From positions 1 through 49,495 of the IMG/VR virus record IMGVR_UViG_3300047566_000254: a stretch of DNA of 49,495 nt. One strand, written 5' to 3'. The position numbers were made by a program, and so were the translations under genes. Shown here piece after piece: positions 2 to 47,224 of the stretch; positions within the stretch are counted from its first letter, which is position 1; the number at the start of each line of letters is the position of its first letter. The DNA comes from a virus. The notes below the pieces were generated by a model that was given only the letters and a program-made list of their open reading frames with translations, had not been told where the DNA came from and did not search any database.

Positions 2-3000
2 GCCAAAGACCTTGCTGAGAATAGACAAAAATATCCTCATACTCCACAAAATCCTCTTTCTGATGCTGATCTTGCTATCAGAGAAAAAAATGAAAAGGAT
101 ATTAATGAGAAGTATACAAAACTGATTGCTAATCTTAAAAAGGAAGAAGAAACTAAACCGGCAGAGGTTGTTAAAACATCTTTAGAGGGTCTTCCTAAGA
201 TGCAGATTCTTGACTCCCAACTTAGTGTGGGTGCCCATAGATTGGAAGATATAAAGACTGGCAAATATATAGATACTGTTGAACAAGCAGAACAAAGACT
301 GGCTAGTACATTAGCATCTTTATCACAGGCTGACTTAGATGAAGGTTTATCTATTGTAGTCACTGAAAGACCTGCAGGACAAGCTAAACCTGCTATACCT
401 AGAAATGAAGTTGTCTATATCAACCCACAAAAGTATTCAATTCAGCTTCGTTACAATAATGCACCTATTGGGTATTTGACAAATGCCGGTTTCTATGTGT
501 TCAAAATAGATGGTCAGGAACTTAATGCTTTAGATCTTTCTGTTGAGCAGTTTGAAAAACTAATGGAAATACCAAAGGACAAAACACCTTTACAAGCACT
601 TGAAAGTTTTCAACAAGATTATAAAATAGCTTCTACTATACAGGTAGCTATTGAAAAACATCTAAAAGATGGAAAGAATACTTTTTCAGGAACTGAAATA
701 CAAGACCTATTATCTATAAAACCTGTAATCAGTCTTGACTTTGTAGATGGGTCACGGCCGGCACCAAAACTTAGTGAACTAGAAACATCAGTAGAGGTTC
801 CTATAAATGAAGCAGGTGAAAGAAGAATGGTTGTTGTAAACAATGCTCGGTATAAAGAAACTGTTGAAAAATTACAAGCAACAGGAGAGTTTACTGAAGT
901 AACTTCTTCTGAATTTGCACCTATGGTATTAGGTGAAATGAGTGATTTGGATTCTCCTGCAATTAAGGCTGCAGGTGAAATACCTATTTCCAATAATATG
1001 GGCATGTACTCCGTGGCAGTAGAAGTAGCTGGTCAGGTAAAATGGATACAGGTTACACCAAGTCTTTATACTGAAGCAGAAATGCAAACAACTTTGAATA
1101 GAATTACAGAGTTGACCAGTAAAGAAAGTAGAACAGATGCAGAAAATAGTGAGATATCATCTTTATTACGTGGTATCTTTATTGCCCTACCTGTCTATAC
1201 AACTGCTGAAAAAAATGGTAAAGTTCAAAAAGTAAAAGATCCTGAGCAAGATTGGACATTTGATCTTTACTATAGTCCTGTAAATAATACTGTAGGGGTA
1301 AAAACTAATAAAAAGAATGCTTTACTTCTCACATTGAGTACTGCTAAATTTACCAATGCAGAAGAATTGGCCCAAGCTATACAGAAAGAAATTTCAAAGG
1401 TTAAAAAGGGAAAACAATTATTTCCGGGAGTAACAATAACTAAAGAAAACTTTAAACATCAGGTACCTTTTACCGGTTCTATTGAACAAAAGAAAGCAGA
1501 TGTAATGAATATGACTGCATCTGTATACCCTAATGTTGCTCAAAGAATATCATTGAGGTACGGGCTCCCTGTAGAAAAACTACAAACTACTATACCTGCA
1601 GAATCTGAGCCAGGTGTACCTAGTAATGTTCAACCTACTGATGTGTCAGAGATAACAAAAAAAACTAGAACAAAAAAAGCTACAAAAAAAGAAGAGTTAA
1701 AAGCTGCAGAAGAAGTAGATTTTGATGCTCTAAAATCGGCAAGAAAAAGAGGAGGTGAGGCTAAAAAAGTTGTTCCTAAGGGTAAAATTTTTGATGAGAA
1801 ATCTGTAGAGAACATACAAAAATTTACAGCATGGGTTAAGAAAAATCTGCCGGAAGAAGTTTTCTCTGTAGGAGCCCTTTCACGACTTGAAGAAGCAATG
1901 TATGATACCCATACTACAGTAGGACAATTTGTTGGCTACCTCAATGATCTTAAAAAGATAAAAGGTGAAATACAAGTTACTGAAACTTCACCATTTAAGT
2001 ACCATGAGGCATTTCATGGCATATTTAGATTATTATTGTCTCAAGACAAAATAGACCAGCTTTTTGCACAGGTACAAAAAGAAGTAAAGGTTACTGCTCA
2101 ACAGTTAAAAGAACTGAAGGAGTCTGACCCTCTTTACATGAATATGTCTGATGCAGAACTGAAAGAAAGGTTCTATGAAGAATACATGGCAGACAAATTT
2201 GATGCTTGGAAAATGAATAGAAATACCCCGGCACCTGGTACTTTAAAAGCATTCTTCCAAAAGCTTTTTGATTTTATAAAAAAATTGTTTGTACGTATTT
2301 CAAGAAACCGTCTCCAGGCAATGTTCTATGAAATAGAAGCAGGTAAATATAAAAAAACAGATCTGCAGGTAAATTCTTTTACAGATGAAATACAGAAAGG
2401 TATATCTACCCCGGCTTTAAAACTAATAAAAATTGAAGAAGGAGTTGAGATAGAAACAGAAAGTGGAACTAAAGTAGTAGATAGATATTTTCCTCAGGCT
2501 AAAGGAGACCAACTATCTTCTAACATTGCTGCTTTGTTCCATCGTATGGTTCAGCAAGAGTCTGGGCATAACAAGAAAAATCTTTTGAATAAGATACTGG
2601 ACATGTATGCTGCTACATACGACACAAATCTTCCTATTTATAAAAGAAGAGCTGCTGCAATTACAGATATTTCTAAAAGAGCTCAGTGGATGGGAGAGCT
2701 TGTGGATCTTGAAGCAGTAGTTACTGATAAAGATGCAAGAGCAAGTTTGATGGAGGCAGTTGATCTTCATCTTAATATTATGGGTTATCGTCAGGAACTT
2801 GATGATGAAAGTACAGTTTCTTTAGAAAATGAGGTAGGTGCAAGAAACACAGAAAATGTACATCAGAAGAACAAGTCACCATTGTCAGATTATGCATCTT
2901 TATCAAAATACCTAAGGGAGTATATAGGTTCTACAACTTATCAGTTAGATAAAGATGAATTTGGTAATACCTCACTGATAGATGGTACACCAATCTACAA

Positions 3001-6000
3001 TACAGTTTCTGCCAATAAGGTTTACAATGGTATGCTTGCAATACTTTCAAACATACCAAATGAAGAAACTATACTTGAAAGAATGGTAGAGTATACCAAG
3101 CATCAAGGTAATCCTGAAACTACAAAATTTCTTAATCGTCTTTTTGAAGATGTTGATTTTGATTTTGATGCAATGACTCCTCGTAAGAATAGTCAGTACC
3201 TGCAACAAGTCATTAAAGGTTTTAACCAGTATAGTACTCAGTATTTATTTACTAGAGTGACTCAGGATAATAAATACCAGACATCTTATGCCAATACTAA
3301 AGATGCAGCAAAGGTGCAGTTTTCAAATTGGAGGGATCAGTATGAGTCTTTAAAGACAGTAAAAATTCTTTCAGTAAGAAAGCTGGTAGATAAGATGTCT
3401 AATAACGAGACTAAAATTTCAAATACAGAGCTTGATAAATTTGCTGAATCTATTTCAAAAAATCTTGAAAAAGAGACAGGTATTGCTTTGCATGAAATGT
3501 TTATTAAATTCTCTATTATTGCTTCAAAAAAAGAAGAAGCAAGAACGAAAGAACAACAAAAGTTCTATAATCTATATAGTAATGTAGAGCCAATTTTGCC
3601 ATCTGCACTTGTAGCAAATCTTGAAACACCTCTTAGTAAAGGAGCTAATCTGTTTGCTAGGGATGTAATGGTTGAAGATGGTGAAGAGATAAAAATTGAA
3701 AAAATAAACACCAGTAAACCTTATCAGTTCTTGGTAAAGATAGCTGCAGCTAATGCACTATTTGATGAGACCATTAATACTATATCTTTTACTAATGCAA
3801 ACAATGAAACTGTATATGCACATCAGTTGCCAAACTTTGACTTTATAAGAGCAAGGGAACTGAATGACCTTGCTATCCGGGAAGCACTTGCAATGGACCC
3901 TGAGTTTGGAAACTTCTTGTTGTCTGATCGTAAATTTATTACACTGGCAAACAGAAACAAAATATCTGTAGAACAGATAGATGGTCTTCGTAAAGTTTTT
4001 GAGTCATTTAACCAAGAAACAGGTGAGTCATTTATCAGTAATGCTCTTGAAGTAAACAGACAGCCGGGGATTACTTTTGGTGACTATAACAAACGTGAGT
4101 TTCTTGCTACACTTCTTGGTTTTTATGATGTAAGAAACCAACCTGATGCAGTTGTTCGTAATGATAGTAACACTGAAAGCTGGTATGTGATACCAGTAAT
4201 GACAAGAACAATTGAGGCAAAAAACAGTGCTCACCTGATGAGAATGGCTGTAATACCTTCTGTTAGCAAAGTAAATGGTGTTTTAAAACTTAGTCAGCCG
4301 GCTATGGATAAACTCTATGAGTTTGTAGTTTCTGAACTGAAGAATATCAGAAGAGCTAAAAAGGAAATTGAGGAAATTAATAGTGGTACATTTACCGGTA
4401 AAGTATTACAGGGCTACCACACAGGTAAAAAGAATGACGATGGTAGTTGGAAAACTGTACCAAGGGGCCTGAAATTTTTTAACATGAGACTGGCACTTGG
4501 TGATCTTGCTGAACAAATAGAAGCAGCCCCTGATGCAGAACTTAATGAAACCAAGGTAAAAGACCAACTTAATAGATATTGGTTAGCACAAGCCGATTCT
4601 CTTGCTACAGAAATGGCACTTGAGGGTCTGATTAATCTGAAAAAAGAAAATGGCAAAGTAACAAAAATATCTAATATACTGGCACCTAATTTTATTTTTG
4701 AAGGGTTTGGTAATCAGCAGGTAAATGATGGGATGAACATTGTAAATAATGACCCAATGTTCAATATTGCTCAGATTATGGTCAATGACTTTATAAATAC
4801 TGTTGCAATTAATCAACTGATGCTGGGCAATGAAGCCAAATCATTTAAAGATCCAATTGACCAGGTAAAAAGAATGGCCGGTGCAAATGCACAGGGCCCC
4901 TCTATGAAAACCTCTTTTACAGCAACAGACCTTGGAATTAGTCATGCTCTCCCTACTATATCCCATGTTACTTATTCGGATGCAGAAGGTATTGTAAAGT
5001 CATCTGTATCAGGTAGTAATATTCAGTCTGATGATGGGCAGATGTACGGAACAGCAAAAGGTCTCAGATATGCACTCTTTGGTTTTGGCAAGCTTACTAA
5101 GTTGCAAGCTGATATTATTACAAAGCTGGAGCAAGGTATAGATATAACAGAGAAAGAATTCTTTGAAGCAGGTGGGCTTAAAGATGCCGGTGCATTTAAC
5201 TCATTGAAACTTGTCTACTATAACGGTAACACTTACCTGAAATGTTCAATGATCCCTCTTTTTAGAGGAGCTGTATCTATATGGGATGGTAATGAATGGC
5301 AACCTCAAATAGGCAGAGAAGCTGCTCATGAACTTCTAAATAAAATGGAAGACTATGAAGAGAGAAATAAAACTGTAGTATTTGCCCATCCGGAGTCTGT
5401 GTCAAAAGCAATGAAAGCAAATGTTGCCTCATCTATATTTGACATAACTGATGGTAATTTTAATCAGTTAGATAGTAGGTTTATGAGGCAACAGCTTGAG
5501 AACCCTTCTAATAAGATGGTTATAACAGATCCTTCTCAGGCAAAGCAGCAAATAATGTCTGAGCAAGATATTAATACTCCTGTGACTTTTATGGGAGTAG
5601 AGACTACTATAGGAAAGGTTCGTGCTGCTTATATGGCAGATAACTCTCAACGTGTAAAGAATAACTACAACAATGTAGCAAATTCAATCTTTACCCTGAA
5701 AGATGCAATGATTGAACTGGACAAAAGTATTAAGGATAAGCAGTTTACTGCAAAGATGGGGCCGTTCTTTGATAATATGAGAGAAACCCTACGAGCAACC
5801 GGTGCTGATCAGCAGACTCTTGCCTTCCTTGAAACAAAAGATGGACAACCTATATACAACCTCAACTTCCCTTCTACCTTGGAGAAGTTTACAAACATTT
5901 TCCTTAACTATTTTTCTAAAGGTGTAGTTGCAGAAAAAATACCAGGACAAACACTTGCCCTTGTATCCGGGGCTCTGGGTATGGGAGATTGTCTTAAAAG

Positions 6001-38567: not shown

Positions 38568-39281
38568 CTACTCTTCTGTTAATTTCCATATAAACTTTGT
38601 AAACCTATTTATTGTTTGTACTCTACCTTTACAATGAGTTGTAATAGTATTTGGATTTACACCAGATAATCTTGCAGCTTCTGCAATTGATTCATATTTT
38701 GCTATAAAAACCTCTTCTTTGCTATACTGTATAACTGCTTTTTTACTTGCAGCTCTAAATGCACTTGAAACTCCTCTTCTCTTAGCTACTTCTGACTTAT
38801 ACTTTTTAACTGCTTCTGAGTCTTTTCTACCCAGTATAGCCCTTCTTGTGTTTGCTTTATGGGCTTCTGTAATTACTTGAAGTTTTCTTTTCTCTTTTAT
38901 TTTAGCTATATGATCAGCTGTAAGTATTCTTCCTTTCTGAGATAAAGATGATTTTAATTTTGTTTCCTCAGATCTTCTAATAGTTTTATTTGGGCCTGTT
39001 GGTTGTATATTATAGCCCTTTTCTTTGTTATGGCTGTCTAACATAACTGCCCAATAGTTTTCCATACTACACAAATAATTTTCTTCCCATTTTTCAAGAA
39101 TCTCAAATCTAAAACAGTCTATCCCGTATAAATTTACAGCATGCTGTAGATGTACATTACTATGGTTATTTCTTTTTAGCTCAGACCAGTGACATCTTTT
39201 TCTTTTATCAAAATCTATAGCATATCCAACATAGATTTTACCATCCAATGTATTGGTTATAGTGTATATACCAGAGTTCAT
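38568..39281 (-). CDS. GIY-YIG homing endonuclease
   Basis: A 237-residue free-standing homing endonuclease. The N-terminus has the GIY-YIG fold (SGIYTITNTLDGKIYVGYAI, then FDKRKRCHW with the catalytic Arg region, and a later SMENYWAV with Glu). A NUMOD3-like Lys-rich middle (SQKGRILTADHIAKIKEKRK) and a C-terminal NUMOD1-type helix-turn-helix (IAEAARLSGVNPNTITTHCK) give DNA recognition. It sits between the ATPase and the SSB-like gene. Its leader contains two interleaved long helices, the inner one ending 9 bases before the ATG. Confidence 0.9.
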   Translation of the reverse strand: MNSGIYTITNTLDGKIYVGYAIDFDKRKRCHWSELKRNNHSNVHLQHAVNLYGIDCFRFEILEKWEENYLCSMENYWAVMLDSHNKEKGYNIQPTGPNKTIRRSEETKLKSSLSQKGRILTADHIAKIKEKRKLQVITEAHKANTRRAILGRKDSEAVKKYKSEVAKRRGVSSAFRAASKKAVIQYSKEEVFIAKYESIAEAARLSGVNPNTITTHCKGRVQTINRFTKFIWKLTEE

Positions 39282-42003: not shown

Positions 42004-42822
42004 TTACAAGCTTTTTGATACATATTTGTTTCTGCATCTTTGCTTACTTATTGACGCAATCATCTTCTCTTTTTTTCTGAGTAAACAAGGTCCATTATCT
42101 CTATAAAGTAACTCTTGTAACCTTATTACTTCTAATTTTTTATGCAAATTCAATCTGTAAAAAGGATTCTTTCTATTTTTAATTTCTACATGCTTTTTGG
42201 GGTTAAAATTATTGTGTAAAAGAAAGGAGTATATTTGGTTTGTAAACTTCTCAGAAGAACTATAAATAGATACATCTATTGTGCCTTCTCTAACTGATCC
42301 ATCCCCATCTATAATACCTCTCAACATAGAAAAAGACAATGGTATTTTAAGCTCTAAAGTCAAAGATTTTCTTTCAGTTATCCCAATAGACTTTAGTAAA
42401 GTATATGTCTCTTTATTTTTAAAAGCAACTCTATATAAGTTAGTACCAAATTTTTTGTTGTATTGTTTATTTATAGAAACCTCATTGTTTAAATACTTTT
42501 TATAATACTCTAAAATGTAGCAATCTTTTTCAGACACTTCTAACACAATACTATTATTTGTTAGACAACCATCTGTAGCCAACCACCCTAACCAGTATTG
42601 TGTTTCTGGATTATCAATATTTTGAAAGTGATTTTTTTTGACAAAAGCTTGTACTATATCATTACCTCTTACAGGTATCCCTTCTCTTGCAAGTATTCTT
42701 CTAATAGTAGTATTATAAGTATTTAACTCATTTGCAATATCCTTTTGGCTTATGCCTTTTTGGTACTGTGTTACTATATACTCAACTTTTTCTTTGGGGT
42801 ATTTGTTTGGTACGTGTTTCAT
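42004..42822 (-). CDS. LAGLIDADG homing endonuclease
   Basis: A 272-residue protein with an N-terminal helix-turn-helix (YPKEKVEYIVTQYQKGISQK) and two LAGLIDADG motifs: WLGWLATDG and LRGIIDGDG. It is a single-chain, free-standing homing endonuclease, lying just downstream of the family A polymerase gene, a common target region. I start it at the ATG at 42822 because a consensus host-type promoter (42872-42841) overlaps the alternative ATG at 42858. The 48 bases after its stop hold a small hairpin, AAGGGT (41971-41976) with ACCCTT (41994-41999), without a minus-strand T-run. Confidence 0.9.
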   Translation of the reverse strand: MKHVPNKYPKEKVEYIVTQYQKGISQKDIANELNTYNTTIRRILAREGIPVRGNDIVQAFVKKNHFQNIDNPETQYWLGWLATDGCLTNNSIVLEVSEKDCYILEYYKKYLNNEVSINKQYNKKFGTNLYRVAFKNKETYTLLKSIGITERKSLTLELKIPLSFSMLRGIIDGDGSVREGTIDVSIYSSSEKFTNQIYSFLLHNNFNPKKHVEIKNRKNPFYRLNLHKKLEVIRLQELLYRDNGPCLLRKKEKMIASISKQRCRNKYVSKSL

Positions 42823-42840
42823 AATCTTGGTTTGATTAGT

Positions 42841-42872
42841 CAAAGATACTAAACACATACCAAACTAACAAA
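42841..42872 (-). promoter_or_regulatory. Bacteroidetes-type promoter for the LAGLIDADG gene
   Basis: TATCTTTG (42848-42841) is a full TAnnTTTG box, with TTTG at 42872-42869 and a 20-base spacer. The -33 element begins immediately after the polymerase stop codon. The expected start of transcription, near 42834, gives a leader of about 12 bases before the ATG at 42822. Confidence 0.8.
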
Positions 42873-46790: not shown

Positions 46791-46814
46791 AATTTTTCTT
46801 TTTTTTACTTAGGA

Positions 46815-47188
46815 GGACTTTTCAGAAACTTGGATGGTAGGAAAAACTTAAGTCACCCCTGCCCCTGTGTCAGGAAGTGACTATAGCTATCCTACCTGCA
46901 GCTTTACTCTGGAGCCACTTCCCTGTCACCCGTTTTGGCTCTAAAAGGGTTTATAAGTCATGAAGAAACCACAATTAGATTTAAAGGATATTTCGGTGCA
47001 CTGCTGCCACCCTCACTTTGGATCAGCTTACGTCCCAGAGACTTGGACTATTTTAAATGAGAAAACCCCCATCTGATTGGAGCCCGTGGAAGGTTATCAG
47101 TCTGAGGGAGTTCAGGAACCAGGGGCTCCATTACTTTTTTATATGTCTTTGATTATTTACTATTGGATCTTTCCACGGGCTCCTATAG
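46815..47188 (-). ncRNA. Large structured RNA or very long structured leader, unknown class
   Basis: A gene-less segment that is G+C richer than its surroundings (134 of 300 bases at 46861-47160 by hand count). Stems seen: GGAGCCCGTGGAA (47079-47091) with its exact complement at 47171-47183, 13 bp plus a G-T and a G-C pair; a second GGAGCCC copy on the minus strand (47129-47123) that can compete for the same partner; GAGCCA/TGGCTC (46912-46917 with 46936-46941); and three nested helices GGTAGGA/TCCTACC (46836-46842, 46890-46896), AGTCAC/GTGACT (46851-46856, 46877-46882) and CCTG/CAGG. The minus-strand promoter puts the RNA 5' end next to the long helix. No tRNA, tmRNA, RNase P or intron signature is recognisable. 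The 3' end is undefined. Confidence 0.65.
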
Positions 47189-47193
47189 CACCA

Positions 47194-47224
47194 CAAAGAT
47201 ACCATCCTTCTGCAGAATTCCAAA
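47194..47224 (-). promoter_or_regulatory. Bacteroidetes-type promoter for the structured RNA
   Basis: On the minus strand TTTG (47224-47221), a 19-base spacer and TATCTTTG (47201-47194) match the host promoter consensus at every position. The expected start of transcription is about 47187, only a few bases before the first arm (47183) of the 15-bp helix. Confidence 0.8.

Follow-up and report, generated by a model that had tools for sequence, protein, structure and literature searches.

The RNA gene and its surroundings

Does a gap without genes in a phage genome hold the gene of a structured RNA and, if so, what might that RNA do? The window analysed here, a 49.5-kb IMG/VR virus record, raises this question with the 447 bases between the minus-strand ORFs 47486-47238 and 46790-46329, which hold no gene-like ORF and have a G+C content of 0.43-0.44 against ~0.33-0.40 in the surroundings, as the original prediction had stated. 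That prediction placed here a structured RNA with a host-type promoter, belonging to no known RNA class, and offered two ideas for its role, namely a free RNA or a leader that switches the DNA polymerase operon. It also assigned the genome to the crAss-like phages, which are abundant in Bacteroidetes viromes, and the matches of the window's polymerase, helicase and two giant proteins to such phages (roughly 24-34% identity) agree with this. The RNA lies near the head of a one-strand gene block of ~30 kb, and the DNA polymerase is the sixth gene downstream of it.

Taken alone, the window proves little. Among 100 shuffles of the 391-nt region, 18 fold as well as the region itself (z -0.95), so the predicted structure is not borne out by the folding energy of the whole region, while the first ~133 nt alone fold better than the whole (z -2.9). 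Similarly, a full-consensus promoter (TTTG-N19-TATCTTTG, 47224-47194(-)) is present as predicted, but such promoters are found in the window at chance level (six against 4.05 expected). It is the relatives that demonstrate the structured RNA, because they show base-pair covariation and keep the promoter box in 11/11 distinct sequences, and the element at 47224-46808 (Table 1) is almost certainly real.

Table 1. Features of the RNA gene in the window, with helices of selected relatives
Feature	Position	Strand	Sequence or remark
RNA gene	47224-46808	-	5′ domain to 47062, then 3′ module to 46808
Upstream gene, 82 aa	47238..47486	-	not a conserved neighbour among relatives
Downstream gene, 153 aa	46329..46790	-	ExoX-like C-terminal match in relatives; start 17 nt past module
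-33 promoter element	47221..47224	-	TTTG; TTTG or TTGG at equivalent place in most relatives
-7 promoter element	47194..47201	-	TATCTTTG; Bacteroidetes sigma-A type TAHHTTTG; box in 11/11 distinct relatives
Predicted transcription start	47189..47189	-	G, in helix H0; placed by F. johnsoniae numbering
Hairpin H0	47158..47190	-	TGCTAT 47190-47185 with ATAGTA 47163-47158; H1 5′ arm in loop
H1 5′ arm	47171..47183	-	GGAGCCCGTGGAA; in H0 loop
H1 3′ arm	47079..47091	-	TTCCACGGGCTCC; within H2 loop
Inner hairpin H3	47115..47129	-	GGAGCC/GGTTCC; 5′ strand is second GGAGCCC copy
Hairpin H2	47066..47110	-	CTCCC 47110-47106 and CTGAT 47100-47096 with ATCAG 47077-47073 and GGGGG 47070-47066; parsed in 11 sequences
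UUUU tract after H2	47062..47065	-	intrinsic-terminator-like end of 5′ domain; site flagged weakly
3′ module, type A	46808..47061	-	from alignment and pair counts
Module A helix	46979-46975/46944-46940	-	UCUAA/UUAGA
Module A helix	46970-46966/46952-46948	-	GGUUU/AAACC
Module A helix	46896-46890/46842-46836	-	GGUAGGA/UCCUACC
Module A helix	46882-46877/46856-46851	-	AGUCAC/GUGACU
Module A, further helices		-	GCC/GGC and CCUG/CAGG
H1 arms, window			GGAGCCCGUGGAA/UUCCACGGGCUCC
H1 arms, L164			GGCCCUGAGAAAG/CUUUCUCAGGGUC
H1 arms, L169			GAGGACCGGCAAA/UUUGCCGGUCCUC
Module B long-range helix, L037			CCUCGUGAGA/UCUCACGAGG
Module B long-range helix, L002			CUCAGGAGA/UCUCCUGAG

Relatives and database searches

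Relatives were collected by polymerase-seeded scans, and the first homologues then supplied patterns for further scans. The RNA is carried by about a dozen crAss-like contigs of IMG/VR, with 11 distinct 5′ domains, those of the window, L002, L022 (identical L018, L020), L023 (= L027), L039 (= L032), L037, L038 (= L040, L043), L044, L164, L165 and L169. A search with a covariance model built on the 5′ domain yielded a single match per record in 12 records, the longest of 133.6 kb. Scans seeded with the 153-aa protein and with the ParB-like neighbour gave no relatives, and two candidates, L006 and L034, were discarded as chance pattern matches.

Rfam 15 at gathering scores has no match in the window and six homologous loci, as had been expected of an RNA outside the known classes, and permissive Rfam scans returned noise only; the family is previously undescribed. 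INPHARED DNA searches with elements of the window, L044 and L037 gave no match. In a relaxed-pattern scan of GTDB genomes, those of the matches listed that were filtered were chance matches without a promoter, and no host copies were found among them. A covariance search of nine phage genomes (Cellulophaga phi14:2, Flavobacterium FpV4, DAC15, crAss001, cr128_1, cr116_1, Leptolyngbya Lbo-JY46 and two unverified scaffolds) gave nothing convincing, the best match (E 0.009, in the Leptolyngbya phage) being weak and multiple, and a structural descriptor found no match in Cellulophaga phi14:2. In the record of this last phage (L175), ORFs at 1279-1983 and 2905-4601, near replication genes, were withdrawn from annotation; the two regions, candidates for other non-coding RNA, match neither Rfam nor the window RNA.

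Promoter and 5′ domain

In Flavobacterium johnsoniae numbering the -7 box, of consensus TAHHTTTG, ends at -5 (PMC6847099), which places the predicted +1 at 47189. All 11 sequences have a purine at this position, opening H0, and the -7 box (11/11) together with TTTG or TTGG at -33 in most of them marks a Bacteroidetes sigma-A promoter.

The 5′ domain comprises 112-132 nt, from just past the -7 box to the U tract. Its centrepiece is the 13-bp helix H1, which joins the H0 loop to the H2 loop as a pseudoknot or as kissing hairpins, its 3′ arm lying inside the H2 loop in every sequence parsed. This helix had been predicted correctly (GGAGCCCGTGGAA/TTCCACGGGCTCC at 47183-47171/47091-47079) and covaries in relatives, while the H0 and H2 hairpins around it and the boundary between the 5′ and 3′ parts had been missed. 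The H1 arms differ at almost every position between phages; pairing reaches 12.9/13 within a sequence against 7.3/13 with the arms of other phages, and none of 100,000 random re-pairings attains the observed total. In a sequence-only alignment, 87.5% of the H0 and H1 cells are paired (71.2 when shuffled) and 13 of the 18 pairs have changed on both sides, including 4 of the 5 tested in H0. The covariation score for the two helices is 0.458, against 0.194 +/- 0.028 for shuffled alignments and at most 0.127 for slid controls, which is the outcome sought when covariation in relatives was originally named as a check.

The upper part of H2 could be compared by per-sequence parsing only, because loop lengths differ. 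At its base, the GGGTTTT at the junction with the U tract is invariant in all 11 sequences, and the C-run/G-run-UUUU arrangement (11/11), in which a G+C-rich stem is directly followed by a U tract, makes H2 a predicted intrinsic terminator. A 13-bp H1 between loops of 22 and 20 nt would fit into one molecule only if one of the hairpins closes after H1 has formed; judged from the sequence, H1 may form either within one molecule or between molecules. For several type-B RNAs (see below), single-sequence folds show H1 continuing into the 3′ strand of H2, and therefore two mutually exclusive states are possible. Across the 11 sequences the 5′ domain keeps no conserved unpaired core; pairing is kept instead of sequence, which speaks against the domain harbouring an aptamer or ribozyme core. 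Elsewhere in the window, the H1 arm has no trans targets beyond chance.

A different source of alternative folds had been proposed in two GGAGCCC copies that compete for one partner. In the window, the second copy (47129-47123) can indeed pair with the H1 3′ arm, with 0/300 shuffles as good; L169 behaves likewise (again 0/300), its second copy having changed in step with H1, and so does L039 (P = 0.017). The alternative partner is absent in the other 8 of 11 sequences, and the competition is thus a real feature of one sub-lineage (3/11), not of the family.

Two unrelated 3′ modules

The U tract is followed by a 3′ module of one of two types, A or B, without recognisable similarity to each other. 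Module A (~255 nt) is found in the window, L023, L039, L169 and L168, and module B (~335-375 nt) in L002, L022, L037, L038, L044, L164 and L165. In module A, mean column identity is 85% and the proposed helices are paired in 97% of cells with little covariation; with no more than five close sequences to compare, its fold is weakly tested. Module B has 12 pairs with double changes and a score of 0.291 vs 0.145 +/- 0.022, and its long-range helix crosses another helix, which makes a second pseudoknot in the RNA. Unpaired sequence is conserved in the 3′ modules. A group I intron was considered, since the order of the module B pseudoknot resembles P3/P7, and was rejected: there is no Rfam match even at a permissive E-value, and no interrupted gene was seen. 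In two phages, L022 (1124 onward) and L002 (1509-1655), module B is accompanied by a basic ORF of 44-49 aa (MNKKVPSK...) between the module and the next gene.

In one contig, L019, the gene is incomplete: at L019:1-700 the promoter, the 5′ domain and the 5′ half of module B are replaced by other DNA, which ends in the perfect hairpin AACAAAAATGGGCACTACGTAGTGCCCATTTTTGTT. The RNA may be dispensable, since L019 seems to have no intact copy here.

Exchange between close phages and gene context

The two module types occur in phages that are otherwise nearly the same. L022 and L027 agree at 98.4% of positions in the 626 nt that lead up to the promoter, and their identity is 93.9% in the 3.1 kb past the RNA; the polymerase N-termini of L022 and L023 (the same phage as L027) are 96.8% identical. 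Despite these near-identical flanks, L022 carries module B and L027 module A. The window (A) and L002 (B), with polymerases 89.9% identical, form a second sister pair. The 5′ domain can differ as well: L044 and L164 have 45 identical nucleotides in the promoter region and 98% identity in the 3′ module, with 67% in the 5′ domain (shuffled baseline 47%), and L037 and L038 share a 3′ module (98%) and differ before it. Therefore, the RNA is replaced as a unit, and the 5′ domain separately. Such exchange between close phages suggests a working RNA under selection, and the pattern of replacement suggests selection for difference, although neutral drift of the helix together with recombination would also yield part of it. 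The sister pairs amount to natural swap experiments, different RNA types in near-identical genomes, which makes function testable.

The neighbouring genes vary. Among relatives, six kinds of gene are found directly upstream of the RNA and five kinds directly downstream; c07 (with an ExoX-like C-terminal match in relatives) comes next in 4/4 of the complete type-A cases. In most phages checked, the following 8 kb or so of the same strand include the replication initiator and a DnaB helicase, while in the L044/L164 lineage these lie 10-16 kb upstream of the RNA. A leader specific to the polymerase operon is therefore unlikely, and the position of the polymerase as sixth gene, the missing unpaired core and the restriction of the alternative pairing to one sub-lineage also lend no support to the switch proposed originally. 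A riboswitch finds no support either, given that the 5′ domain keeps pairing rather than sequence and the set of downstream genes is inconsistent. No terminator was seen behind the 3′ module, and the distance from its end to the next ORF is 10-34 nt where measured; the RNA might thus instead serve the following operon as its 5′ leader, and a long leader with a role other than a polymerase-operon switch is conceivable.

Possible functions

The explanation that we favour, at roughly even chances, is a free-standing phage non-coding RNA, transcribed by the host RNA polymerase, whose 3′ module would act in trans as a folded RNA; it is the better of the two ideas originally offered. Host RNA polymerase would start at 47189, the first base of H0, and the clasp of H0, H1 and H2 would form while the RNA emerges. 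The CCCC/GGGG-UUUU hairpin could then serve as a pause site or partial terminator, probably giving two products, an RNA of ~125 nt and a read-through RNA of ~380 nt, in which the 3′ module would be the active part, working in trans during infection as a folded RNA or an RNA-protein particle. A 5′ domain that keeps only its self-complementarity, in a gene that is swapped as a unit, points to a trans-acting factor under diversifying selection and not to the leader of one operon; that selection might come from co-infecting phages or a host factor.

The main rival, possible but clearly less probable, is a cis-acting 5′ leader that works as an attenuator. Here the H2-UUUU terminator would be opposed by H1, or in type B by an extended H1 that takes the H2 3′ strand, and the 5′ domain would set how much host RNA polymerase continues past it to transcribe the 3′ module and the genes downstream. 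The invariant C-run/G-run-UUUU (11/11), an H1 3′ arm always in the H2 loop, the H1 extension seen in several type-B folds, the alternative H1 partner in the window, L039 and L169, the closeness of the next ORF with no terminator between and the constant c07 after type A (4/4) all fit such a device. However, an attenuator would hardly sit between neighbours of six and five kinds or see its whole gene replaced, A for B, ahead of the same downstream genes, its 5′ domain would lack a conserved unpaired sensor, and the pseudoknotted 3′ module is far bigger than needed.

Two further readings, both improbable, give the variable 5′ domain a role in recognition. The RNA could be a decoy or counter-defence against a host immune system, with the 5′ domain as the part that is recognised or that evades; the speed at which near-identical phages swap this domain and the whole RNA speaks for it, as does the location in the replication region, and the lack of similarity to any Rfam RNA speaks against it. 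With a similarly slim chance, the RNA could be an RNA-only specificity system, in which the H1 loops of RNA copies recognise each other or targets of their own phage in trans. If so, the A/B and 5′-domain exchanges would be changes of specificity, each RNA would assemble with its own kind, and the whole would correspond, at the RNA level, to phage immunity or incompatibility groups.

Processive antitermination is slightly harder still to credit. The nascent RNA would bind host RNA polymerase and let it ignore terminators along the early/middle block, as put RNAs do, and the host-type promoter at the very start, the position near the head of the one-strand block in the window and the conserved unpaired sequence of the 3′ modules would suit this; the L044/L164 RNA, though, lies downstream of the replication initiator and helicase by 10-16 kb, and the single copy, the size and the two unrelated 3′ modules do not suit it. 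Finally, a chance inverted repeat in leftover non-coding DNA, or a replication origin, agrees with the unexceptional folding energy of the whole region and the chance-level promoter matches in the window, and is barely credible against strong, controlled covariation, a promoter, start position and order conserved in 11 sequences, and a region that lacks the direct repeats expected of an origin and has a raised, not lowered, G+C content.

Comparison with known RNAs

To our knowledge, few large structured phage RNAs have been described, the best-known of which, GOLLD and ROOL, have no known function. With strong evidence for its base pairs, the present RNA adds a new family, from relatives of crAss-like phages. 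It would seem to work most like GOLLD and ROOL, and by the Rfam test it is a member of neither; a homo-oligomeric RNA cage is a hallmark of both. GOLLD is a large structured RNA of phages and prophages with a conserved 3′ region, a less conserved 5′ region and a covarying loop-loop pairing (PMC12286853). The window RNA is also large and phage-encoded, with a variable 5′ part, a conserved 3′ part and loop-loop pairing, but it has no Rfam match, is about 380-500 nt long against ~800, has a host-type promoter at the start of the structure and comes with two unrelated 3′ modules. GOLLD is often near tRNA genes, whereas ARAGORN found no tRNA or tmRNA in the loci scanned for the window RNA family. 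ROOL, a phage-associated large ornate RNA, likewise has kissing loops (PMC12286853); the hosts differ, and so do sequence and helices, given the lack of an Rfam match.

Smaller systems share single features. The phi29 pRNA is a phage RNA with two complementary hairpin loops, whose contacts from molecule to molecule span about 4 nt and build a ring on the packaging motor; H1, by comparison, has 13 bp, the present gene lies in the replication region and not beside packaging genes, and there is no Rfam match. The put RNAs of HK022 are structured phage RNAs at the start of a host RNA polymerase transcript, as the window RNA would be, but they are short two-hairpin elements, whereas the window RNA has pseudoknots, a large 3′ module and a single copy. 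In ColE1 RNA II and other antisense-controlled plasmid RNAs, the 5′ loops diverge between relatives, as in the present structured RNA, and set specificity; the partner of the variable loop is here inside the same RNA and not an antisense RNA. Orthogonality has been studied for plasmid RNAs of this ColE1 type (PMC9458437).

Insertions near the polymerase

At L023:3539-5881 (= L027) an intein-like insert (CVDVDTLIDT...GHEIICTMNHKFLT) splits the DNA polymerase behind NTGRM and carries an endonuclease-like ORF; L004/L016 seemingly hold the other half of such an insertion. In the window, a LAGLIDADG homing endonuclease (42004-42872, minus strand) directly follows the polymerase; it is absent in L002 and has its own TTTG-N-TATCTTTG promoter match (42872-42841). 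A second homing endonuclease, assigned to PHROG homing endonuclease families, is encoded at 38568-39281 on the same strand.
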